The translations under genes and the position numbers were made by a program. The notes under the pieces were generated by a model. It was given only the letters and a program-made list of their open reading frames with translations, ran no database searches and was not told the origin of the DNA. A stretch of DNA of 64,000 bases from Herbiconiux ginsengi (lineage in GTDB: Bacteria; Actinomycetota; Actinomycetes; Actinomycetales; Microbacteriaceae): positions 34,960 to 98,959 of the forward strand of contig NZ_FNPZ01000001.1 in NCBI RefSeq assembly GCF_900107435.1. Reading direction: 5' to 3'. The stretch's first letter is position 1. Each line of letters begins with the position of its first letter. This document shows, piece by piece, positions 6,252 through 62,309 of this stretch.

Positions 6252-8066
6252 TCAGCAGCTCGTGAGGCTCTCCACGCCAGCCCCCAGCGAGTTCGGCCCG
6301 CCCAACAAGGTGACCTTGGTGTTGTCGAAGAAGGCGAAGCTCAGCTTCACGTCTTGCGGCACGCAGGTCCCGGGCACCACGATCAGCGGCGAGCCTTGCG
6401 CGCCGGCCAGGGCCGACCCGGCGAGCGCATCCGGGAAGTTCAGTCCGGTGGCCAAGAAGACGCGGTCGCTCGGATGCGTGCCGTCGGTGTTGTCGTACGC
6501 ATCCTTGTTGATCGCGAGCGAGGCCGCGAACCGGTCGGCGCCGGCCACGCGCTGCGTCTGGATGCCCGGCAGAGCCGCGATCGATGACTGAATGCCGGTC
6601 GACACCGAGTTCGGTCCGCCTGCGATCGTCACGTTCTTCACCTTCAGCGTGGTCAGCAGGGCTGCTGTTTCCGGGTCGACGGATGCTGCGCCGCCGTTCA
6701 CCAGGATCACCGGCTCCCCGTTGTGCCCGCCCGCCCCGCTGGCGCTCAGTGCATCCGGGAAGTTGAGGCCGGTCGCCACATAGGCACCCGTCGCGCCGGT
6801 GCCGAAGGCGCGCTGGGCGACCTTCCGCGAGACCTCGAAACGGTCGGCCCCGCTGATGCGGGTGACGGTGGCGCCGGGGAGCAGTACAGCGAGCTGCGTC
6901 GCGACGCTCGGGCCGACCGAGTTCGGTCCGCCCACGATCACCACGTCGTCGGGGTCGAGCTTCGTGAACTCGGCCGCGATGCTCGCGGGCAGCGAATCGG
7001 TCGTGGTCAGCAGCAGCGGTGCATGGTCTTTGACGGCCGCCGGGCCAGCGGAGAGCGCATCCGCGTAGCCTGTGCCGGTGGCGAGGTAGACCGTCTTCGC
7101 GCCGTCGGGGTAGGCTTCCTCGGCGATGGCCACCGACTCGGAGTAACGGTCGGGTGCCTGGATGCGGTCGACGTCGATGTGCGGGTAGCCGAACCAGTCG
7201 GTATAGATGATCCAGAAGTTGAGGTTGCCGAAGCTCGCACACTTCCCCTCGATGCCCGCCAGGGCGTCGGAATCGGGCTGGTAGGGCGTGTAGTTGTAGA
7301 GCGAGGCGGTGGCCTGCGTGCGGATCGTCAGCTCCGTGCCGTCGCATCCGGCGGCATCGCTGTACTTCACGACGACGGGCACTCCGACCTGGTACTGGGT
7401 CGAGCCGGGGTCGACCTTGTAGTCCTTCAGGGTCCAGGCCGCCCAGTACACCTGCTTGAAGAACCCGGCGTAAGCGGGATTGCACGGCGCCGAGTCCGAG
7501 CAGTCGAACCCGGTGGCCTGCTGGTACTGCTTGTCGACGGGCCAGTCGTCGCCGACGAGCTGGGACTCCTTCTGGATGAGCACGAGCAGCGCCCTCTGGC
7601 TGATGCCGCACGCCTGCCCGACCCTCGCGACGATCGTGGCGGCCGACTCCGATCCCGAGCCCGCGTAGGCGGTGCACCGGCTGTCACCCGCCATCGACGG
7701 GGTGGCGGTGCGGTAGTCCTTGAGGCACGTGTACCCGGGCTGGCAGGTGGGAACCTGGGCCTGCAGGAAGGACTGCACGGCACCCGCCGACATCGCCGTT
7801 CCGGTGTACATGTTCTTGTCGCTGATGATGTCGTCGGCGCGGAAGCTCGTCGTCACCGGTGCGGCGTTCGGAATCGCGACCAGCTGGTCGTCGAGGGAGA
7901 ACGACGATTCCGACGACGGATCGGGGGCCGGGTCCGAGGTCGGAGCGGGCACCGGCTGCTCCTCGGCTGCCACGGCACCGACGGCGCCCCCGGCGACCAG
8001 CCCCACCGCCAGCAGCAGTCCGAGCAATCCGGTGAGGGGGTTCCTGAGCGGCGACGTCGTCTTCAT
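6252..8066 (-). CDS. Secreted protein with lysozyme-like domain and three cell-wall-binding (CW_binding_2) repeats
   Basis: 604 aa. A signal peptide (1-34, cut near AVAAEE) and an acidic Pro/Ser linker lead into a domain at about 75-285. That domain contains paired Cys residues and a QKESQL segment at 165-170, resembling the catalytic Glu-Ser of transglycosylase/lysozyme folds; Glu167 is the likely acid. From about 292 to the end there are three CW_binding_2 repeats (DRYSESVAIAEEAYP, DRFEVSRKVAQRAF and DRFAASLAINKDAY mark their starts, each followed by VGGPNSV or a close variant). These bind the wall. The architecture suggests a peptidoglycan-acting or adhesive surface protein. The enzymatic assignment is inference from one motif; the wall-binding repeats are secure. 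Confidence 0.85.
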   Translation of the reverse strand: MKTTSPLRNPLTGLLGLLLAVGLVAGGAVGAVAAEEQPVPAPTSDPAPDPSSESSFSLDDQLVAIPNAAPVTTSFRADDIISDKNMYTGTAMSAGAVQSFLQAQVPTCQPGYTCLKDYRTATPSMAGDSRCTAYAGSGSESAATIVARVGQACGISQRALLVLIQKESQLVGDDWPVDKQYQQATGFDCSDSAPCNPAYAGFFKQVYWAAWTLKDYKVDPGSTQYQVGVPVVVKYSDAAGCDGTELTIRTQATASLYNYTPYQPDSDALAGIEGKCASFGNLNFWIIYTDWFGYPHIDVDRIQAPDRYSESVAIAEEAYPDGAKTVYLATGTGYADALSAGPAAVKDHAPLLLTTTDSLPASIAAEFTKLDPDDVVIVGGPNSVGPSVATQLAVLLPGATVTRISGADRFEVSRKVAQRAFGTGATGAYVATGLNFPDALSASGAGGHNGEPVILVNGGAASVDPETAALLTTLKVKNVTIAGGPNSVSTGIQSSIAALPGIQTQRVAGADRFAASLAINKDAYDNTDGTHPSDRVFLATGLNFPDALAGSALAGAQGSPLIVVPGTCVPQDVKLSFAFFDNTKVTLLGGPNSLGAGVESLTSC

Positions 8067-8929: not shown

Positions 8930-10261
8930 CTAGAGCTTCGGCAGGCTCTTCCCGTAGACCCAGCGCTCCACGATCGGCCCCACGAGATCGCTCCCCGAGT
9001 GCGCCTCCATGATCTCCACGAAGTCCTCCGTCGACACCAGCCCGAAGCGGCATTCCGAGACGTAGGAGCGCAGCGAATCGAAGAACACGTCGTCGCCGAG
9101 CGCCCGCCGGATGGCGTGCAGCGCGAGCGCCCCGCGCTTGTAGACACGGTCGTCGAACATCGACTGCGGACCCGGATCGCCGATCACGATGTCCTTCGGC
9201 TGCGCGTTCACCTGCGCGCGGTGCGCCGCCGCGCTCGCGTCGGCCGACTTGCCGCCGCTGGCCTCGGCCCAAAGCCATTCCGCGTAGCAGGCGAACCCTT
9301 CGTGCAGCCAGATGTCGCGCCAGCGTGCCAGCGTGAGGCAGTTGCCGAACCACTGGTGCGCGAGTTCGTGGGCGATGAGCCGGTCGGTTCCGTGGAGTCC
9401 GTCGACGTGGTTGCGCCCGAAGATCGCGAGCCCCTGCGCTTCGAGCGGGATCTCCAGCTCGTCGGGCGTCACGACCACCGCGTAGGAATCGAACGGATAC
9501 GGCCCGAACAGCTCGCAGAACAGGGCCATCATGTCGGGCACCCGCCCGAAGTCGATGGCCACCTCGCGCTCGAGCGCCTGCGGGTAGAAGAGGGTCTGCG
9601 GCACGGGCTCCGACGCGATCGACCGCGAGCGGTAGCGGCCGATCTGCACCGTGGCGAGATACGTCGACATCGGCTGCCGCATCTCGAAGGTCCAGATCGT
9701 GCGCCCGGAGCGGTTCGCGCGCGACACCACCGGGCCGTTCGACACCACCGTGTACCCGGCCTCGCAGGCCAAGGTGATGCGGTAGAGCGCCTTGTCACTC
9801 GGATGGTCGTTGCAGGGAAACCAGGATGCCGCCCCACTCGGCTGCCCGGCCACGATCACGCCGTCGGCGAGCTCTTCCCAGCCCACTTCGCCCCATTGGC
9901 TGCGGATCGGATGCGGCGCCCCGCGATAGCGCACCACCACGGTGAACTCGATCCCGTCGGCCAGCGGCCGTTCGGGCGTGATCACGAGCTTGCGCGGCGT
10001 CTCGGCGAGCTTGCGCGGCCGCTCCCCGTCGACGGTCACCTTCACCACGCTGAGGCCGGCGAAATCGAGGCTGAAGCGCTCCAGCGGCATGGTGGCCCGG
10101 GCGCGGATGATCGCGACCCCGTTCAGCCGGTTCGTGGCCACCCGGTAGTCGAGATCGAGGTCGTATTCGAGCACGGAGTAGCCACCGTTGCCACTCGTCG
10201 GAAGGTAGTCGTCACCCGCCGACGCGGCCCCCAGAGAGGATGATGGTGGATTGGCTGCCAT
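8930..10261 (-). CDS. M1-family zinc aminopeptidase (short form)
   Basis: 443 aa from ATG 10261. A GTG at 10282 would overlap the upstream synthetase gene by 13 bp. The N-terminal saddle domain starts at GGYSVLEYDLDLDYR. The exopeptidase motif is LEAQG (about 273-277) in place of GAMEN, as in many actinobacterial members. The zinc site is HELAHQWFGN (about 298-307) with the third ligand Glu in LHEGFACYAEW about 20 residues on. The protein lacks the large C-terminal helical domain of PepN, as short M1 enzymes do. It removes N-terminal residues from peptides. It directly follows the Pls-like synthetase on the same strand, so it is co-transcribed and may trim or degrade that enzyme's product. 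This role is inference, from my memory that epsilon-polylysine producers carry a Zn aminopeptidase acting on the polymer. Confidence 0.9.
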   Translation of the reverse strand: MAANPPSSSLGAASAGDDYLPTSGNGGYSVLEYDLDLDYRVATNRLNGVAIIRARATMPLERFSLDFAGLSVVKVTVDGERPRKLAETPRKLVITPERPLADGIEFTVVVRYRGAPHPIRSQWGEVGWEELADGVIVAGQPSGAASWFPCNDHPSDKALYRITLACEAGYTVVSNGPVVSRANRSGRTIWTFEMRQPMSTYLATVQIGRYRSRSIASEPVPQTLFYPQALEREVAIDFGRVPDMMALFCELFGPYPFDSYAVVVTPDELEIPLEAQGLAIFGRNHVDGLHGTDRLIAHELAHQWFGNCLTLARWRDIWLHEGFACYAEWLWAEASGGKSADASAAAHRAQVNAQPKDIVIGDPGPQSMFDDRVYKRGALALHAIRRALGDDVFFDSLRSYVSECRFGLVSTEDFVEIMEAHSGSDLVGPIVERWVYGKSLPKL

Positions 10262-10269
10262 GGATGCGG

Positions 10270-13200
10270 TCAAGTCTGCCACGGTGCGATCGGATTGCCC
10301 GCCCAGAGCGATCCGCTCGGCACCCGCTCGCCGCGCATCACCAACGACGCCGGGCCCACGCTGGCGTTGCGGTCGACCGCGGCCGCCGGCAGGATGACGC
10401 TGTGCGGACCGAGGGTTGCGCCCTCGCCCAGCACGACGGAGTCCAGTTGCATGATGCGGTCATGGAAGAGGTGGGTCTGCACGACGCATCCGCGGTTCAC
10501 GGTCGATCCGTCGCCGAGGGTGATCAGATCGGCCTCGGGCAGCCAGTACGACTCGCACCAGACCCCGCGCCCGATGCGCGCTCCGAGTGTGCGCAGCCAC
10601 ACGGCGAGCGCCGGGGTGCCGGAGGCGTTGGCCGCGAACCAGGGGCGCGCCACGGTCTCGACGAAGGTGTCGGAGAGCTCGTTGCGCCACACGAACGACG
10701 ACCAGAGCGGATGCTCGCTCACCACGATCCGCCCCACCAGCAGCCACTTCGCGGCGGTCGAGACGAGCGCGGCGACGGCTCCCGCGGCGAGCATCACGAC
10801 GCCGGAGAGCAGGATCGCCCAGCCGAGACCGATCTCGGTCCACAGCCATTCCAGGGTGACGAGGATGCCGAGGGCGATCCAGGCGGTCACGACGACGGGC
10901 ACGATCCGCAGGATCTCCCAGACCGCGCGGGCGAGCTTGAGCGAGGCCGGCGGGCGGAAGGTGCGGGCCTCGTCGAAGTCGGAGACCGTGCGCCGCAGCC
11001 GCACGGCCGGATTGCCGAGCCAGGAGGAACCGCGCTTCCCGTTCTTCGGCGCCGAGGAGAGCACGGCCACCAGGCCGTTCCGGGGCACGCTGCGGCCCGG
11101 CCCCGCGATACCGCTGTTGCCGAGGAACGCACGACGGCCGATCTTCGCCTTGCCGATGCGCAGCCAGCCGCCGCCGAGTTCGTAGGAGGCCACCATGGTG
11201 TCGTCGGCCAGGAACGCGCCCGGAGCGATGGTGGTGAGCGCGGGCAGCAGCAGCACCGTCGAAGCCTCGACGTTGCGGCCCACCTTCGCCCCGAGCATCC
11301 GGAGCCACCACGGGGTGGCGAGGCTGGAGTAGATCGGGAAGAGCAGGGTGCGGGCGCTGTCGAGGATGCGCTCGGTCGACCATGCCTGCCAGCCGATGCG
11401 ACTGCGCACCGGGTAGTAGCCCTCGCGCAGCCCGATGCCGAGCAGGCGCACCGAGCCCACCACGAGCAGCGCGTAGGCCGCGCCGGCCACGATCACGGCG
11501 AGCGGCGTCGCCAGTGCCGCCCGGGCCGCCGCTTCGCCGAGCGTCGCGGGGTCGCCGATCATGGCACCGACCACGAGGGCGCCGAGCAGCACCGAGACGG
11601 CCGGCAGCGCCGACATGCCGAGCGAACCCAGTGCGTAGGCGATGAGCCAGCGCTTGGCGGGCAACGGTCGCGCCGCCGGCCAGGGTCGCCGGGCGGAGCC
11701 CACGCGGGTGGCGGGCGAGCCGGCCCAGCGTTCGCCGCTCGGCACCCGGCCCGACACGGCGGCGCCGGCCTCGACCTCGGCTCCGCGGCCGATGTTCGCG
11801 CCGCCCAGCAGGGTGCTGCGCGAACCGATGGTGGCGTCGGCGCCGATGTGGATGCGCCCCACCCGGAAGGTGTCGCCGTCGAGCCAGTAGCCCGCCAGGT
11901 CGACCTCGGGTTCGATCGCGGCACCCGCGCCGATCGAGATCATCCCGGTGACCGGGGGCAGGGTGTGCAGGTCGACCCCGCGGCCGATCTTCGCGCCGAG
12001 CGCGCGGGCGTAGTAGCTGATCCAAGGGGCTCCCGCGAGACTCACCGATCCCGCCAGCTGCTGCACCTGCTCGGCCAGCCAGACGCGCAGGTGCACGGTG
12101 CCGCCGCGCGGATAGTCGCCGGCTCGCAGACCGGTGAGCAGGAGCCGCGCGGCGACCACCGAGATCGCCATCTTGCCGGGTGGCGTCACGAAGAGCACGA
12201 AGCCCACCAGCACCCACCACCACGAGACCGTGGGAAAGAAGGTGTGCGCTCCGGCGGCCGAGAGCAGGTTGTTGGCCGCCGAGAGATAGACGAACCAGCG
12301 CAGCCCCACGATGACGTGCAGGGGGATGCCGAGCAGCGTCTGCGCGATGCGGCTGGATGCCGGCGTCACGAGCACAGGCCGGTCCGCTCCTCGACCGGAG
12401 CCGCTGCCGGCCGGGGCCCGGCTGTCCAGCTCCTCGGCGAGCGAGCCGATGCGGGGGTGGTCGTAGATGTCGGAGACCCGGGTGTCCGCGAAGTGCTCAC
12501 GGATGGCGGACACGAGTTGCGCCGCCGAGAGCGAGCCACCGCCGTGGGCGAAGAAGTCGTCGTCGGGACTCTCCACCGGCACACCGAGGATGGCCGACCA
12601 GCGTTCGGCGAGCCAGGCGGCGGTGGGCGAGAGGTCGGCGTTCGCGGCGTTCCCGTCTCCGGATGCGGGCAGCGGCCAGGGCAGGGCCGCCCGGTCGACC
12701 TTGCCCGAGGTACGCGTCGGCAGCGACTCGACCACGGCGAGCAGCGGCACGAGCGCTGCGGGCAGCTCTTCGCGCAGGCGGGCGTTCGCCGCGTCGCGAT
12801 CGAATTCCGCGCCGTCGGCGAGCGCCAGGTAGCCCACGAGAACCTGGTTGCCCGCGGCCGTGGTCTTCACCACGGAGGCGGCGCCGGCCACTCCCTCGAG
12901 GCCTTGCAGCGCCGCATCCACTTCGCCGAGCTCGATGCGGCGGCCGCCGAGCTTGACCTGGTCGTCGGCGCGGCCCACGAAGATCAGTCCGGCCTCTTCG
13001 AAGCGCACCAGGTCGCCGGAGCGGTACGCGCGCTCCCAGCCGAGGCTCGGGAAGGGCGCGTACTTCTCGGCGTCCTTCGCCGGATCGAGGTAGCGGGCGA
13101 GCCCCACTCCCCCGATGATGAGCTCGCCGGTCTCCCCCTCGGCGACGCGGGCTCCCGAGGCGTCGACGACGGCGAGCATCCACCCGTCCAACGGAAGGCC

Positions 13201-14301
13201 GATGCGCACCGGACCGCTGCCGAGCAGTGACGCGCAGGCGACGACGGTGGCCTCGGTCGGGCCGTAGGTGTTCCAGACCTCTCGACCGCGCGCGGCGATG
13301 CGCGCCACCAATTCGGGCGGACAGGCCTCACCGCCGAAGATGACCAGTCGCACGAGCTCGAGCGATTCCTCGGGCCAGAGTGCGGCCAGGGTCGGCACCG
13401 TGGAGACCACGGTGATGCCGTGAGCGATGAGCCAGGGGCCGAGGTCGACCCCCGAGCGCACGAGCGAGCGCGGGGCGGGCACCAGGCAGGCGCCGTTGCG
13501 CCAGGCCAGCCACATCTCCTCGCAGGAGGCGTCGAAGGCCACCGAAAGACCCGCCAGCACCCGGTCGCCGGGGCCGATCGGCGACTGCTGGAGGAAGAGG
13601 CGCGCCTCGGCGTCGACGAAGGCCGCGGCCGAGCGATGTGTGACGGCGACGCCCTTGGGCACGCCGGTCGAGCCGGAGGTGAAGATGACCCAGGCGTCGT
13701 CGTCGGGCGTCGGGCCGCCGACGGCCGGGATCGTGCCGGTGGGGGTGGCGAGCGACGGCGTCGCGTCCGGCGGGAGATCGTCGACGGAGTCATCGTGGTC
13801 GACGGCGGAGATCCCCTCGCCGCCGACCACGTCGACGGGGGCATCCACAGCGCCCGCGGTGGCCGCGCCCGGCGCATCCGCTGATTCCGCCGCAGCGGCA
13901 CGCGGGGCGAAGACGCCCCCGACGCCCACCACGCCCACCACGCGCGCCTCGCCGAACACGAGCTGCGCCCGCTCTTCGGGGTCGTCGGCATCGACCGGCA
14001 CGTAGGCGGCACCCACCGCCAGCACGGCGAGGATCGAGACGTACAGCTCCCGTGTTCCCGATGGAATCCGGATGCCTACCTTGTCGCCCCGCCGCACCCC
14101 GGAGCGACTGAGCACGGCCGCCTGAGCGTTCACGAGGCGCAGCAGCCGGCGGTAGCTCACCGCACCCTCGGGCGAATCCAGGGCGAGCGCATCCGGGTTC
14201 TCCACCGCGGTCTGCATCAGGATGTCGATCAACGTGCGCACGGGCGTGGCCCGCGCCCCGGCATCGAGCACGCGCTGTAGATCGGCGTTGTCGTCAGTCA
14301 C
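10270..14301 (-). CDS. Pls/PosA-type non-ribosomal peptide synthetase (A-PCP plus membrane C-terminal region)
   Basis: 1343 aa. GTG 14301 is chosen because GGAGAGG lies 7 nt upstream; an in-frame ATG at 14334 has no such site. The adenylation domain covers about 15-535, with A3 IFTSGSTGVPKG, A4 FDASCEEMW, A5 NTYGPTEAT, YRSGDLVR and the lysine motif TRTSGKVDR. The carrier domain (about 555-625) has HGGGSLS, with Ser590 as phosphopantetheine site. The remaining 700 residues hold about six membrane segments separating three hexapeptide-repeat (left-handed helix) domains. There is no condensation, thioesterase or reductase domain. This is the layout of epsilon-poly-lysine synthetase and relatives, which join one amino acid into a chain and may export it. 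The substrate cannot be read reliably. A low-complexity insert of about 65 residues separates A2 and A3. Confidence 0.9.
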   Translation of the reverse strand: MTDDNADLQRVLDAGARATPVRTLIDILMQTAVENPDALALDSPEGAVSYRRLLRLVNAQAAVLSRSGVRRGDKVGIRIPSGTRELYVSILAVLAVGAAYVPVDADDPEERAQLVFGEARVVGVVGVGGVFAPRAAAAESADAPGAATAGAVDAPVDVVGGEGISAVDHDDSVDDLPPDATPSLATPTGTIPAVGGPTPDDDAWVIFTSGSTGVPKGVAVTHRSAAAFVDAEARLFLQQSPIGPGDRVLAGLSVAFDASCEEMWLAWRNGACLVPAPRSLVRSGVDLGPWLIAHGITVVSTVPTLAALWPEESLELVRLVIFGGEACPPELVARIAARGREVWNTYGPTEATVVACASLLGSGPVRIGLPLDGWMLAVVDASGARVAEGETGELIIGGVGLARYLDPAKDAEKYAPFPSLGWERAYRSGDLVRFEEAGLIFVGRADDQVKLGGRRIELGEVDAALQGLEGVAGAASVVKTTAAGNQVLVGYLALADGAEFDRDAANARLREELPAALVPLLAVVESLPTRTSGKVDRAALPWPLPASGDGNAANADLSPTAAWLAERWSAILGVPVESPDDDFFAHGGGSLSAAQLVSAIREHFADTRVSDIYDHPRIGSLAEELDSRAPAGSGSGRGADRPVLVTPASSRIAQTLLGIPLHVIVGLRWFVYLSAANNLLSAAGAHTFFPTVSWWWVLVGFVLFVTPPGKMAISVVAARLLLTGLRAGDYPRGGTVHLRVWLAEQVQQLAGSVSLAGAPWISYYARALGAKIGRGVDLHTLPPVTGMISIGAGAAIEPEVDLAGYWLDGDTFRVGRIHIGADATIGSRSTLLGGANIGRGAEVEAGAAVSGRVPSGERWAGSPATRVGSARRPWPAARPLPAKRWLIAYALGSLGMSALPAVSVLLGALVVGAMIGDPATLGEAAARAALATPLAVIVAGAAYALLVVGSVRLLGIGLREGYYPVRSRIGWQAWSTERILDSARTLLFPIYSSLATPWWLRMLGAKVGRNVEASTVLLLPALTTIAPGAFLADDTMVASYELGGGWLRIGKAKIGRRAFLGNSGIAGPGRSVPRNGLVAVLSSAPKNGKRGSSWLGNPAVRLRRTVSDFDEARTFRPPASLKLARAVWEILRIVPVVVTAWIALGILVTLEWLWTEIGLGWAILLSGVVMLAAGAVAALVSTAAKWLLVGRIVVSEHPLWSSFVWRNELSDTFVETVARPWFAANASGTPALAVWLRTLGARIGRGVWCESYWLPEADLITLGDGSTVNRGCVVQTHLFHDRIMQLDSVVLGEGATLGPHSVILPAAAVDRNASVGPASLVMRGERVPSGSLWAGNPIAPWQT

Positions 14302-14365
14302 TCGAGTACCTCTCCGGGTCGGCGTCCGACTCACTCCTCACCGTACGCGTGCCGAGCCTAGGGAG

Positions 14366-14398
14366 CGGAGGTGACTCGCAGGTGAACAGACGGTGACG
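14366..14398 (-). promoter_or_regulatory. Three-unit PHO-box-like array upstream of the Pls-like operon
   Basis: On the synthetase strand three contiguous 11-mers read CGTCACCGTCT, GTTCACCTGCG and AGTCACCTCCG. The middle one fits the Streptomyces PHO-box unit G(G/T)TCAYYYR(G/C)G at all 11 positions, the third at 9 of 11, the first less well. A TAGGCT hexamer at 14355-14360 follows. The array thus overlaps the place of a -35 box, as in PhoP-activated promoters. The expected binder is the RegX3 encoded at 53.4 kb. Confidence 0.6.
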
Positions 14399-14405
14399 CG
14401 ACTGG

Positions 14406-14429
14406 GAGAACGAATGTTCTGGTATTCTC
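14406..14429. promoter_or_regulatory. Overlapping palindromes and -10 box upstream of the tetR gene
   Basis: AGAAC-gaat-GTTCT (14407-14420) is a perfect inverted repeat. It overlaps a wider GAGAA/TTCTC pair (14406-14410 and 14425-14429). TATTCT (14423-14428) fits a -10 box whose start point would be the A of the ATG at 14435. A TetR dimer here would block its own promoter and might also touch the divergent synthetase promoter. Confidence 0.5.
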
Positions 14430-14434
14430 GGAGC

Positions 14435-15019
14435 ATGTCCACCGCCGCAACCGCCACCGCCGCAACACCGCCGAAGGTGTCCGAGGCGCGCGAGCGTCTG
14501 GTGCGGGTGGCCTCGGAGCTGTTCTACCGCGAGGGCATCCACAGCGTCGGCATGGATCGCATCCTGGCCGAGGCCAGCGTCACCCGCGCCACCATGTACC
14601 GCCACTTCTCGGGCAAGGAGGCCCTGGTGGCCGCCTACCTCGAGCGCGAGGACGCGGTGATCCGCGGCTACTTCAGCACCGACGGCGACCCGGCACCGGC
14701 CGAGCTGGTGCGGCTCGTCATCGACGGGATCGCCGACGACATCGGCCGCTACCACACCCGCGGCTGTCCGTTCATCAATGCGGCGGCGGAATACCCCGAC
14801 GCGACGAGCGAGGTGCGCCGCATCATCGAGCGGCACCGCGAGTGGTTCCGTTCGACGCTCCGCGACGCGCTCGTGGATGCGGGCGTCGCGGACGCCGAAA
14901 CCGTGGCGGGTTCGCTCGTGATGCTGCGCGACGCCGCCCTGGTCGGCGCCTACCTCGACGGTGTCGAGGTGGCGCGCCCGGTCTTCGTGGCCACGGCGCA
15001 CGCCCTCGCCGGCCTCTAG
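14435..15019 (+). CDS. TetR/AcrR-family transcriptional regulator
   Basis: 194 aa, the usual TetR size. The N-terminal helix-turn-helix (about 15-62) reads ARERLVRVASELFYREGIHS, then VTRATMYRHFSGKEALVAAYL, which is characteristic. The C-terminal ligand domain is unassigned, with CPFINAAAEYP in the middle as in the YxaF/AefR-like group. The ATG at 14435 lacks a ribosome site but lies 7 nt after TATTCT, so it is probably read from a leaderless mRNA. It is divergent from the Pls-like synthetase, with palindromes in the gap. It is therefore likely a local repressor of itself and perhaps of the synthetase operon. Confidence 0.9.
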   Translation: MSTAATATAATPPKVSEARERLVRVASELFYREGIHSVGMDRILAEASVTRATMYRHFSGKEALVAAYLEREDAVIRGYFSTDGDPAPAELVRLVIDGIADDIGRYHTRGCPFINAAAEYPDATSEVRRIIERHREWFRSTLRDALVDAGVADAETVAGSLVMLRDAALVGAYLDGVEVARPVFVATAHALAGL

Positions 15020-53405: not shown

Positions 53406-54086
53406 TCAGCCTTCGAAGCGGTACCCCAACCCCCGCACCGTCACCAGCAGGGTGGGCTCCGAGGGCAGCTTCTCGATCTTCGAGCGGATGCGCTTGATGT
53501 GCACGTCGAGGGTCTTGGTGTCGCCGAAGTAGTCGGAACCCCAGACCCGGTCGATCAGCTGACCGCGGGTCAGCACACGCCCCGCGTTCCGCAGCAGCAG
53601 CTCGAGCAGTTCGAATTCCTTCAGAGGCATGGCCACCTCTTTGCCGTTCACGGCCACGGTGTGCCGCTCGACGTCCATCGACACCGGACCGGCCACGAGC
53701 TGCGGCTCGGCGGCATCCAGCACCTCCAGCTGACGCCGCAGCACGGCCCGGATCCGCGCGAGCAGCTCGCGCGTCGAATACGGCTTCGTGACGTAGTCGT
53801 CGGCGCCGAGCTCGAGGCCCACCACGATGTCGATCTCGGAGTCCTTGGCGGTGAGCATGATGATCGGCACCGACGACCGGGTGCGGATCTCGCGGCACAC
53901 TTCCGTGCCGGGGATGCCCGGGATCATCAGGTCGAGCAGGATGATGTCGACCCCGCCGCGGTCGAACTCGCTGATGGCGCTCGGCCCGTCGGGCGCAACG
54001 GTCACGCCGTAGCCCTCGCGGCGGAGCAGGTAGCTGAGCGGTTCGCTCAGCGCGGCTTCGTCTTCGACCAGCAGGATGTGGGTCAT
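53406..54086 (-). CDS. regX3: Phosphate-response regulator RegX3 (PhoP/PhoB type)
   Basis: 226 aa. The receiver domain has DE in LLVEDE, phosphoacceptor Asp52 (IILLDLMIPG), Thr in MLTAKDSEID and Lys in VTKPYSTREL. The winged helix (about 130-226) has VAMPLKEFELLELLLRNAGR and DTKTLDVHIKRIRSKIE. It matches RegX3/PhoP closely, and senX3, phoU and gpm neighbours confirm it. Its start overlaps the senX3 stop (ATGA). It should bind the 11-bp direct repeats found before phoU and before the Pls-like operon. Confidence 0.93.
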   Translation of the reverse strand: MTHILLVEDEAALSEPLSYLLRREGYGVTVAPDGPSAISEFDRGGVDIILLDLMIPGIPGTEVCREIRTRSSVPIIMLTAKDSEIDIVVGLELGADDYVTKPYSTRELLARIRAVLRRQLEVLDAAEPQLVAGPVSMDVERHTVAVNGKEVAMPLKEFELLELLLRNAGRVLTRGQLIDRVWGSDYFGDTKTLDVHIKRIRSKIEKLPSEPTLLVTVRGLGYRFEG

Positions 54087-55237
54087 CGTTTCTCTCCTTG
54101 AGGAAGTGCCGAGGCGGGGGGCGCCTCCGGAAGCCGGATGGTGAACGTCGAGCCCTGGCCGATCTGCGACCAGGCGCGGATGTCTCCACCGTGGTTCTGC
54201 ACGACGTGCTTCACGATGCTGAGCCCGAGTCCGGTTCCACCCGTGTTGCGCGACCGCGCCTGGTCGACGCGGAAGAACCGCTCGAACACGCGCGGGAGAT
54301 CTTCGTCGGGGATGCCGATCCCCTGGTCGGTCACCACGAGCTCCACGACACCCTCGTCGTGGTGCACGCCGATGCCGACGCGCGATCCGTCGGGCGAGTA
54401 CTGCACGGCGTTGGCGATCAGGTTGTTGATGGCGAGGGTGAGCAGCGCTTCGTCGCCCATCACCTGCACGTGCTTGGCGCCGCCGACGGCGAGCGTCATC
54501 CCCCGCGCGTCCGCCACCACGTGGTTCTGGTCGACGGCGGAGGCCACCACCTCGTCGAGGTCGATGCGCACGGCCGCCGCCAGGATGTCGGTGGACTGCA
54601 GTCGCGAGAGCTCGATGATCTCCCGGGTGATCTGCGAGAGGCGGGTGGCCTCGGTGCCCATCCGCTTCGCGAAGCGACGCACCTGCTCCGGGTCGTCGGA
54701 GGCCGGGTCGAGAGCCTCGGCGAGCAGGGCGATGGCGCCGATCGGCGTCTTCAGCTCGTGACTGATGTTCGCGATGAAGTCACGGCGCACCTCTTCGAGG
54801 CGGTAGGCATCGGTGCGGTCCTCCGCCAGCACGAGCACGTAACGGCTGCCGAGCCGCGCGGCCTGCACGTCGAGATGGATGCTCGCCTCGCCGAACGGTC
54901 CCCGGGCGAGCGTCACCTCCTCGCTCACCGACTCGCCGGTGCTGCGCACGCGGGCCACGATCTCGAGGATCTCCTCGTGCACCAGCAGCTGGTTCACCAC
55001 GAGTCCGTAGGTATAGGCCTTCGCCGAGGACTTGACCACGTTGTTCGACGGGTCGAGCACGAGGCCGGCGGAGTCGAGGGCGTCGATCACCTGATCCACC
55101 CCGTCGGGCACCGCGGAGGAGACGACGGTGACCGCGTTGTTTCCCCGCCGTTCAGCCATGTGGAGCAAGATGACGAATCCCGCTCCCACAGCGAGGCCGA
55201 GTGCCACAGACAACAGCACCAACCAGCCTGTTTCCAT
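54083..55237 (-). CDS. senX3: Phosphate-sensing histidine kinase SenX3 (PhoR type)
   Basis: 384 aa from ATG 55237. TAGTGT stands 8 nt upstream on the minus strand, so the longer frame to 55315 is rejected. One N-terminal membrane helix (4-27) precedes a PAS domain (about 45-145, SAGLVLDPSNNVVKSS). HisKA with His160 in NISHELKTP and the ATPase domain (NLIANAVQYSP, DQGIGIP, GTGLGLSIV) follow. It phosphorylates RegX3 when phosphate is scarce; PhoU damps this in related systems. Confidence 0.94.
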   Translation of the reverse strand: METGWLVLLSVALGLAVGAGFVILLHMAERRGNNAVTVVSSAVPDGVDQVIDALDSAGLVLDPSNNVVKSSAKAYTYGLVVNQLLVHEEILEIVARVRSTGESVSEEVTLARGPFGEASIHLDVQAARLGSRYVLVLAEDRTDAYRLEEVRRDFIANISHELKTPIGAIALLAEALDPASDDPEQVRRFAKRMGTEATRLSQITREIIELSRLQSTDILAAAVRIDLDEVVASAVDQNHVVADARGMTLAVGGAKHVQVMGDEALLTLAINNLIANAVQYSPDGSRVGIGVHHDEGVVELVVTDQGIGIPDEDLPRVFERFFRVDQARSRNTGGTGLGLSIVKHVVQNHGGDIRAWSQIGQGSTFTIRLPEAPPASALPQGEKR

Positions 55238-55309
55238 AGCCACTACACTAGTGAGTCCCCCTGGGCCCGAGGCCCGGTATCCCATGGCGGAGCCGTTGCT
55301 TCCTGGACT

Positions 55310-55342
55310 GTTCAACTTCCCGGCACCTCGCGTTAACCTGCC
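55310..55342 (+). promoter_or_regulatory. PHO-box-like direct repeats in the senX3-phoU gap
   Basis: Three contiguous 11-mers: GTTCAACTTCC, CGGCACCTCGC, GTTAACCTGCC. They match the PHO unit at 8, 7 and 9 of 11 positions. The place (between the kinase and phoU, 40 bp before phoU) is where Streptomyces carries its autoregulatory PHO boxes. Confidence 0.5.
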
Positions 55343-61616: not shown

Positions 61617-62309
61617 GTGGCGCAGTTGTTGATCCTGACCTCTGCGGTCGACCGCGAGGTGTTACCCGCGCTCTCGCTCCTGAGCCATCGCACCCGCCAG
61701 ATCCCCGCCGAAGCATCGCAGCTGGTCAACACCCCGAACAGCGATCTCATCTTCGTCGACGCCCGCCACGATCTCGCCAGCGCCCGCTCGCTCTGCAAGA
61801 TCCTGTCGAGCACCGGCATCGGCGTTCCGGTCGTGCTCATCCTCACCGAGGGCGGGCTCACCGCGGTCAGCGCCGAATGGGGCGCGGCGGATGTCGTGCT
61901 CGAGACGGCCGGGCCCGCTGAAGTCGACACGCGCATCCGTCTCGCCATCGGCCGGCAGGTGCAAGACCAGTCGACCTCGAAGATCCAGGCCTCCGGTGTC
62001 GTGATCGACGAGGCGAGCTACTCGGCCCGCGTGCACGGCCGCCCGCTCGACCTCACCTTCAAGGAGTTCGAGCTGCTGCGCTTCTTCGCGATGCACCCGT
62101 CGCGGGTGTTCACGCGCGAGCAGTTGCTCAGCGAGGTCTGGGGCTACGACTACTTCGGCGGCACCCGAACGGTCGACGTGCACGTGCGGCGGCTACGGGC
62201 GAAACTGGGCGACCTCGAATCGCTGATCGGCACCGTGCGCAACGTGGGGTACCGCTTCAACTTCTTCGAGGACGACAATGAGCGACTCGCTCACACTCTC
62301 AATCAGTAG
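61617..62309 (+). CDS. glnR: GlnR-like orphan response regulator
   Basis: 230 aa from GTG 61617, with TGGAGG upstream. The receiver-like domain (1-115) keeps the central Asp48 (LIFVDARHD) but has Thr-Ser where the acidic pair should be and no conserved Lys. It is therefore an atypical, probably phosphorylation-independent receiver, as described for GlnR. The winged helix (about 130-220) has [20 protein letters not shown] and [16 protein letters not shown]. No kinase is nearby. GlnR controls nitrogen genes. The glnR-mshD order equals Rv0818-Rv0819. Its last 32 bp overlap mshD. Confidence 0.87.

Follow-up and report, generated by a model that had tools for sequence, protein, structure and literature searches.

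Within the window (the whole 64,000-nucleotide stretch of Herbiconiux ginsengi DNA under analysis), an operon for a Pls-type polyamino-acid synthetase lies behind a run of 11-nt direct repeats, and the locus raises the question of which regulator these repeats serve and which condition turns the operon on. The original prediction was phosphate starvation acting through SenX3-RegX3. Phosphate control of the pls operon is well supported by the comparisons described here: the array is likely a PHO box (i.e., 11-nt direct repeats recognized by a regulator of the PhoB/PhoP/RegX3 type) that would place the pls-M1 peptidase operon in the Pho regulon.

The pls operon and the repeats before it

The operon and its promoter include the following features, of which the promoter elements were read directly:

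8930..10282, minus strand: M1-family peptidase with HELAH-X18-E (Pfam), overlapping the end of pls by 13 bases
10270..14301, minus strand: pls, a Pls/PosA-family single-module synthetase with a GTG start (TIGR02353, Pfam and structure match)
14355..14360, minus strand: -10-like box TAGGCT of the pls promoter
14366..14376, minus strand: PHO-like unit 3, AGTCACCTCCG, promoter-proximal
14377..14387, minus strand: PHO unit 2, GTTCACCTGCG, which contains GTTCACCT
14388..14398, minus strand: PHO-like unit 1, CGTCACCGTCT

The synthetase (1343 aa) scores 732.1 bits against the Pls/PosA model TIGR02353, above the curated cut-off of 423.1, and has the layout of the family: an A domain (PF00501), a PCP (PF00550), the GGxS serine in HGGGSLSA and a hydrophobic C-terminal part (hydrophobic runs at residues 687-717, 886-958, 1013-1032 and 1126-1194). 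The single A domain, PCP and membrane C-terminal part are shared with Pls of Streptomyces albulus (7wew) and with PosA of Acinetobacter baumannii as outlined in PMC10522769. The closest solved structure to the A domain is the epsilon-poly-L-lysine synthase 7wew (E 2e-185); the A-domain stretch FDASCEE is identical to 7wew in the alignment, with the pocket stretch as in the Lys enzyme, and the operon is predicted to yield a polylysine-like polymer. An M1 peptidase homolog follows pls within ~2.3 kb in 110/110 of the pls loci compared, while pls matches above 900 bits were found in 45 of the 119 genomes searched, H. ginsengi included. Downstream of the operon, on the same strand, the window encodes a CWB2 cell-wall binding repeat protein (6252-8066).

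The three units abut on the minus strand (14398-14388, 14387-14377 and 14376-14366), exactly where the original prediction had read three contiguous 11-mers on the synthetase strand with one exact PHO unit. The middle unit alone is an exact GTTCACC; the outer two read xGTCACC and differ at unit positions 1-2. A PHO box is expected to hold at least two direct 11-nt repeat units with the core GTTCACC, and here there are three, one of them exact. Ten bases (N10) separate the AGTCAC of unit 3 from TAGGCT, five bases separate the end of the array from the same box, and 53 bases lie between TAGGCT and the GTG start of pls at 14301. The array had been assigned to the position of a -35 box; it does precede TAGGCT, but it covers roughly positions -18 to -50 relative to the inferred start and is longer than a -35 box, like an activator site. 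Similarly, PhoB-dependent promoters of E. coli such as phoA lack a -35 box and keep ten bases between the -10 box and the nearest repeat. The PHO box of S. coelicolor is likewise built of 11-nt repeat units with GTTCACC (PMC4415409), and the pls array resembles the Streptomyces/actinobacterial PhoP/RegX3 type presented in that source in its 11-nt direct repeats, its GTTCACC core and the presence of SenX3-RegX3 in the genome. It differs from the Streptomyces PHO boxes known from the same source in that the regulated gene is a polyamino-acid synthetase and the outer units are xGTCACC, while the PhoB core of E. coli is CTGTCAT (PMC4415409) as opposed to GTTCACC/GTCACC at the array. The pls leader carries a further element, CGCGTACGGTG (14339-14349, minus strand), which is invariant in 6/6 same-genus promoters.

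The pattern TCACC-N6-TCACC-N6-TCACC has a single match in the 4,853,715-base genome, at the pls array (reversed control, 0), and the array is the sole site of the 64 kb window when both strands are scanned at phases 10, 21 and 32 for a two-unit score of at least 12.5. The exact two-unit motif GTTMACC-N4-GTTMAYC has one occurrence in the genome, at pstS. With up to three mismatches allowed, the same motif gives 285+337 matches (reversed control, 64+63), and this search of 622 matches is too loose to rank the pls site. Among the matches listed, two have one mismatch, one inside an ORF and the other between two genes pointing the other way.

Single-unit in-phase sites (GTTMAC-N10-TANNNT) number 16 in the genome versus 6 in the control. 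The genes behind them include a HAD hydrolase, an MFS/ATG22-like transporter and CorA (by Pfam), and no classic phosphate gene was found downstream of the 16; thus, this list is counted as neutral or against the PHO reading. At several of these single-unit sites (L187-L202) the start codon lies at most 10 bases from the -10 box (CorA, the MFS/ATG22-like transporter and the HAD hydrolase; a Dyp-like peroxidase by eye), and this subset may represent leaderless promoters that carry a single unit. The gene of the window that starts at about 55383 is taken from its position to be phoU; GTTCAAC and GTTAACC stand 22 bases apart upstream of it, but it is set aside as support because no -10 box was seen in the pstS/pls phase.

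Conservation and promoter phase among relatives

Six genomes of the genus, H. ginsengi included, have a tetR gene divergent from pls, and alignment of their intergenic regions reveals four conserved blocks in otherwise diverged DNA: (i) an (A/G)GAAC-N4-GTTCT palindrome, (ii) GTTCACCT and the 11-nt unit that follows it, (iii) a TANNNT at fixed distance and (iv) CGCGTACGGTG in the leader. The GTTCACCT of unit 2 is invariant in 6/6, and TANNNT stands at the same distance from the units in 6/6. The TCACC core of unit 1 is kept at 11 nt in 4/6 (it is degenerate in L030 and L032), and unit 3 reads GGCCATC in L029. A seventh genome of the genus (G015, locus L235) has the same TetR operator and units. 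In eight more genomes of the genus the pls gene is more distant; seven of these carry, immediately before pls, a GTTMAY at a ten-base spacing from a -10-like hexamer, and the eighth (L038) has the in-phase unit at the head of a short gene that precedes pls. In seven of these eight, tetR was not found beside pls (the remaining one, G009, was outside the search). All 15 readable pls operons of the genus therefore have an in-phase GTTMAY unit, 14 of them directly before pls, while a sixteenth genome (G007), with a fragment of pls only, is outside the count. The -10-like hexamer is weak (CACAAT, CACCAT or GACAAT) in 8/15, and the full three-unit form is not kept in all of the relatives. Loss of the repeats in close relatives that retain the operon, which would have spoken against the original prediction, is thus not what the genus presents.

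Beyond the genus, 110 pls upstream regions were drawn from two collections (30 + 80), and 102 were kept after 8 near-duplicates were dropped. GTTMACC occurs in the sense direction in 49 of the 102 promoters (antisense, 11; reversed, 2; complemented, 1). Spacers between GTTMAY and a [TCG]ANNNT hexamer are most often 10 bases (21 loci) or 21 bases (19 loci), values one repeat apart; other spacers from 4 to 25 are each represented by 0-4 loci, and the antisense count is 4 at each peak. A two-unit score of at least 11 is reached at phase 10 by 41/102 promoters, at phases 4-9 and 11-16 by at most 3/102, and at antisense phase 10 by 4/102, where the sites of L137 and L140 are those of a divergent pstS. 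Dinucleotide shuffles of the pls promoters reach this level in a mean of 0.12 and a maximum of 1/102.

The phase was first read from 24 other loci, and in the 74-locus subset 24/74 promoters score at phase 10 versus at most 3 at other phases; as the score weights were set after the spacer counts over all 102 promoters, the 74 loci test the phase but are not fully blind for the weights. Other gene starts in the same loci reach the two-unit level in 6/334 cases, of which two are pstS (L118 and L155) and the other four immediately precede pls in its own orientation (L175, L177, L184, which is a PPK2 gene, and L185; no Pfam match was found for this gene in L175 and L185). Among 16 further pls promoters, 9 reach 11, seven of these with at least 11.6, and in one (L247) a control phase does as well.

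With genera placed in the groups to which we take them to belong, in-phase promoters are found in 12/27 Microbacteriaceae (15 with leader sites), 9/14 Micrococcaceae (11) and 2/2 Intrasporangiaceae, and in 1/25 Mycobacteriales, 0/4 Pseudonocardiales and 0/2 others; because the loci are related, these phase counts are not independent events. The other 61/102 promoters fall below the two-unit score, and the element is mostly absent from the Rhodococcus, Nocardia, Tsukamurella and Pseudonocardiales loci examined. Judged by this distribution, the element is older than the genus, common in the Micrococcales examined and scarcely seen in Mycobacteriales.

The neighbors of pls were also compared. A pstS gene is divergent from pls within 3 kb in 8/110 loci (L118, L137, L140, L145, L151, L155, L175 and L177), from seven Microbacterium and one unclassified Microbacteriaceae, and in L137, L140, L145 and L151 the pstS and pls matches end ~180-195 bases apart. 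PPK2 is encoded in the pls flank of three loci: in L166 and L184 its gene immediately precedes pls in the same orientation, and in L123 it lies downstream. An in-phase PHO-like site stands at the head of the upstream PPK2 genes (L166, 1974-2939; L184, 2046-2939; two Arthrobacter records). In loci that lack a proximal site, strong sites farther upstream are sense in 7 and antisense in 4, and the four antisense sites are the pstS sites of L118, L137, L140 and L155. The pstS and PPK2 neighbors represent few evolutionary events, and they point in the same direction as the motif.

The pstS comparison and the candidate regulators

For the pstS comparison, one promoter was taken per genome from 20 genomes and H. 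ginsengi itself, with 5 of the 21 belonging to other genera of the family. Where a genome had several PstS-like genes, as many do, the choice was made by reading-frame length before the promoter was seen; the upstream regions of the other PstS-like matches of H. ginsengi were outside the scoring. GTTHACC-N4-GTTHAYC is present in 21/21 pstS promoters at N32 before TANNNT (10+22), which is the pls phase plus two repeats. The pls array thereby shares unit, period and promoter phase with pstS of its own genome and of relatives, at a lower matrix score. A matrix trained on pstS gives 13.65 for the window site and at least 25.1 for 20/21 of the pstS promoters themselves. At a threshold of 9.75 it retrieves 45/102 pls promoters, 0/29 amtB promoters (1 of 30 amtB loci was dropped as too short) and 7/334 other gene starts (four pstS and one ppk2 preceding pls); at 6.95 it retrieves 56 pls versus 3 amtB, and at 25.1, the level set by neighboring pstS genes, no pls promoter. 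The expectation that the pls sites would score with pstS sites is thus borne out in the separation of pls from amtB at 9.75 but not in the height of the window score, which is far below pstS.

The exact motif GTTMACC-N4-GTTMAYC occurs at 68 sites in 70 genomes (1 for the reversed motif). In the 60 genomes also covered by the pstS search, 38 of 60 exact sites lie within 350 bases of a pstS match (coordinates compared by hand); the 22 that remain include two pls promoters, those of G022 and G084. The genes that follow such sites in relatives were examined at 13 loci (10 with a reading frame, 9 by Pfam). They include PPK2 (locus L278 of G015, unlinked to pls) and CDP-glycerol glycerophosphotransferase (G080), as well as genes whose products have no obvious tie to phosphate, among them a prolyl oligopeptidase, a SpoU methylase and a DUF3147 protein.

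Four regulators encoded in the window and the elements of the tetR promoter bear on the choice of binding protein:

14407..14420, no strand: palindrome AGAACGAATGTTCT, a likely operator for TetR that lies in the tetR promoter, on the upstream side of the array
14423..14428, plus strand: -10-like box TATTCT of tetR (read directly), 6 bases before the ATG
14435..15019, plus strand: TetR-family regulator, divergent (PF00440)
53406..54086, minus strand: RegX3, the proposed binder (best structure match 2oqr)
54083..55315, minus strand: SenX3-type sensor kinase
61617..62309, plus strand: GlnR, a rival binder of 11-nt repeats (PF21695, 143.4 bits)

The original prediction had placed SenX3-RegX3 in the window, and the two genes are there. 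The best solved-structure match of RegX3 is M. tuberculosis RegX3 (2oqr, E 1.6e-100), followed by MtrA (5.9e-58), such that a cognate response regulator for a PHO box is encoded in the genome. The partner kinase is of the PnpS/PhoR type, with scores below the cut-offs of those models. RegX3 shares 29/33 residues with its M. tuberculosis counterpart over TRGQLIDRVWG...RSKIE, a stretch presumed to hold the recognition helix.

The main rival to RegX3 is MtrA, which has a similar site. By this account, MtrA or another OmpR-type regulator of 11-nt repeats would be the binder, either by itself or competing with RegX3, and would convey envelope or growth signals, not phosphate. The published MtrA site of S. 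coelicolor, G/T-T-G/A-A-C-C-N5-G-T-G/T-A-C, has the period of the array (PMC5650626), MtrA is reported to regulate nitrogen and phosphate metabolism in Streptomyces (PMC10704036), and the proximal units GGTAACC of L053, L139 and L153 fit an MtrA half-site. MtrA is nevertheless unlikely to be the regulator: all three units have C as the third core base (TTCACC in unit 2, GTCACC in the outer units), a position occupied by G/A or G/T in the S. coelicolor site; agreement with pstS extends to unit, phase and -10 box in 21/21; and pls has pstS and ppk2 as neighbors. Control of pls by GlnR, as a nitrogen-consuming enzyme, is very improbable. GlnR is encoded in the window and GTCAC-N6-TTCAC has GlnR spacing, but the array, with TTCAC as its middle unit, holds no GTnAC-N6-GAAAC-type pair. 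GTTMACC occurs in 0/29 amtB promoters, and GlnR-like pairs (loose pattern) occur in 15/29 amtB (not in L225 of H. ginsengi), 2/102 pls and 0/21 pstS promoters. GlnR was set aside on this amtB comparison, which is a weak control in the genus of H. ginsengi, where few amtB promoters have the loose pattern.

The TetR-family protein could instead be the real switch, with the 11-mers as leftover or weak accessory elements, and the AGAAC/GGAAC-N4-GTTCT palindrome is indeed kept in 6/6 tetR-linked promoters and in L235. Within the flanks covered, tetR stands beside pls in 6/110 loci, all of the same genus. TetR is rejected as the main switch because no homolog was found in the covered flanks of the other 104/110 loci, many of which have in-phase units; its putative operator also lies within the tetR promoter, on the far side of the array from pls. 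As an explanation of the array, TetR is about as improbable as GlnR, if marginally less so. The position of the putative operator makes self-repression the simplest role of the protein, and through this site the protein would add a second input at the level of the genus. The tetR promoter is near-leaderless in look, with the palindrome just upstream of its -10 box (14407-14428). That the repeats arose by chance in GC-rich DNA has a negligible probability. Two-unit matches with up to three mismatches are frequent in the genome and speak for chance, but the triple match is single, the units are conserved in phase in relatives, and shuffles reach at most 1 versus 41 observed; these counts already contradict chance.

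Proposed place of the pls operon in the response to phosphate

With RegX3 as the probable binder of the array, a mechanism may be proposed. In phosphate shortage, SenX3 would phosphorylate RegX3, and RegX3 dimers would then occupy units 2 and 3, and unit 1 as well, in head-to-tail order. The subunit nearest the promoter, at a ten-base spacing from the -10 box, would do the work of a -35 box by recruiting RNA polymerase. The phase of the units is that of the pstS promoter in the same genome. The activated operon would yield the polylysine-like polymer and its peptidase. The divergent TetR-family protein would bind the palindrome between the two genes, most simply to repress itself and possibly to tune the operon. 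Four points go beyond the original prediction: the likely operator for TetR, conservation outside the genus, the precise phase, and pstS and ppk2 as neighbors.

The control proposed for H. ginsengi differs from what is named for S. albulus, in which the regulators of pls given in the available parts of the reports are HrdD and MprAB/PepD (PMC8506220) and AdpA (PMC8994273), with PHO control not among them. RegX3-SenX3 is up in omics data of a high-yield strain, with no link to the pls promoter drawn in the available part of that report (PMC10157215). In the literature searched, mostly open-access, no PHO box or PHO control of a pls gene is described by title or abstract.

The pls operon appears to be a further member of the Pho regulon, common to many Micrococcales. 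The polymer is probably a product of phosphate-starved cells, as pstS-type repeats stand before pls and are kept in many relatives. We know of no clear cellular role for Pls-type polymers. A tentative and broader proposal, held with less than even confidence, is that the Pls-type polymer has long been an arm of the Pho response in Micrococcales: pls and its M1 peptidase would belong to the Pho regulon (in some loci next to pstS or behind ppk2), and the polycation may be made just when the cell is short of phosphate, wall teichoic acid or polyphosphate. It could then replace altered wall polyanions or neutralize them, act together with polyphosphate, or win phosphate from competitors by killing them. 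The promoter code common to pls and pstS points to phosphate starvation as a condition in which to seek the polymer. This shared code would tie Pls-type polymers to phosphate physiology and would predict the strains and media that yield them.
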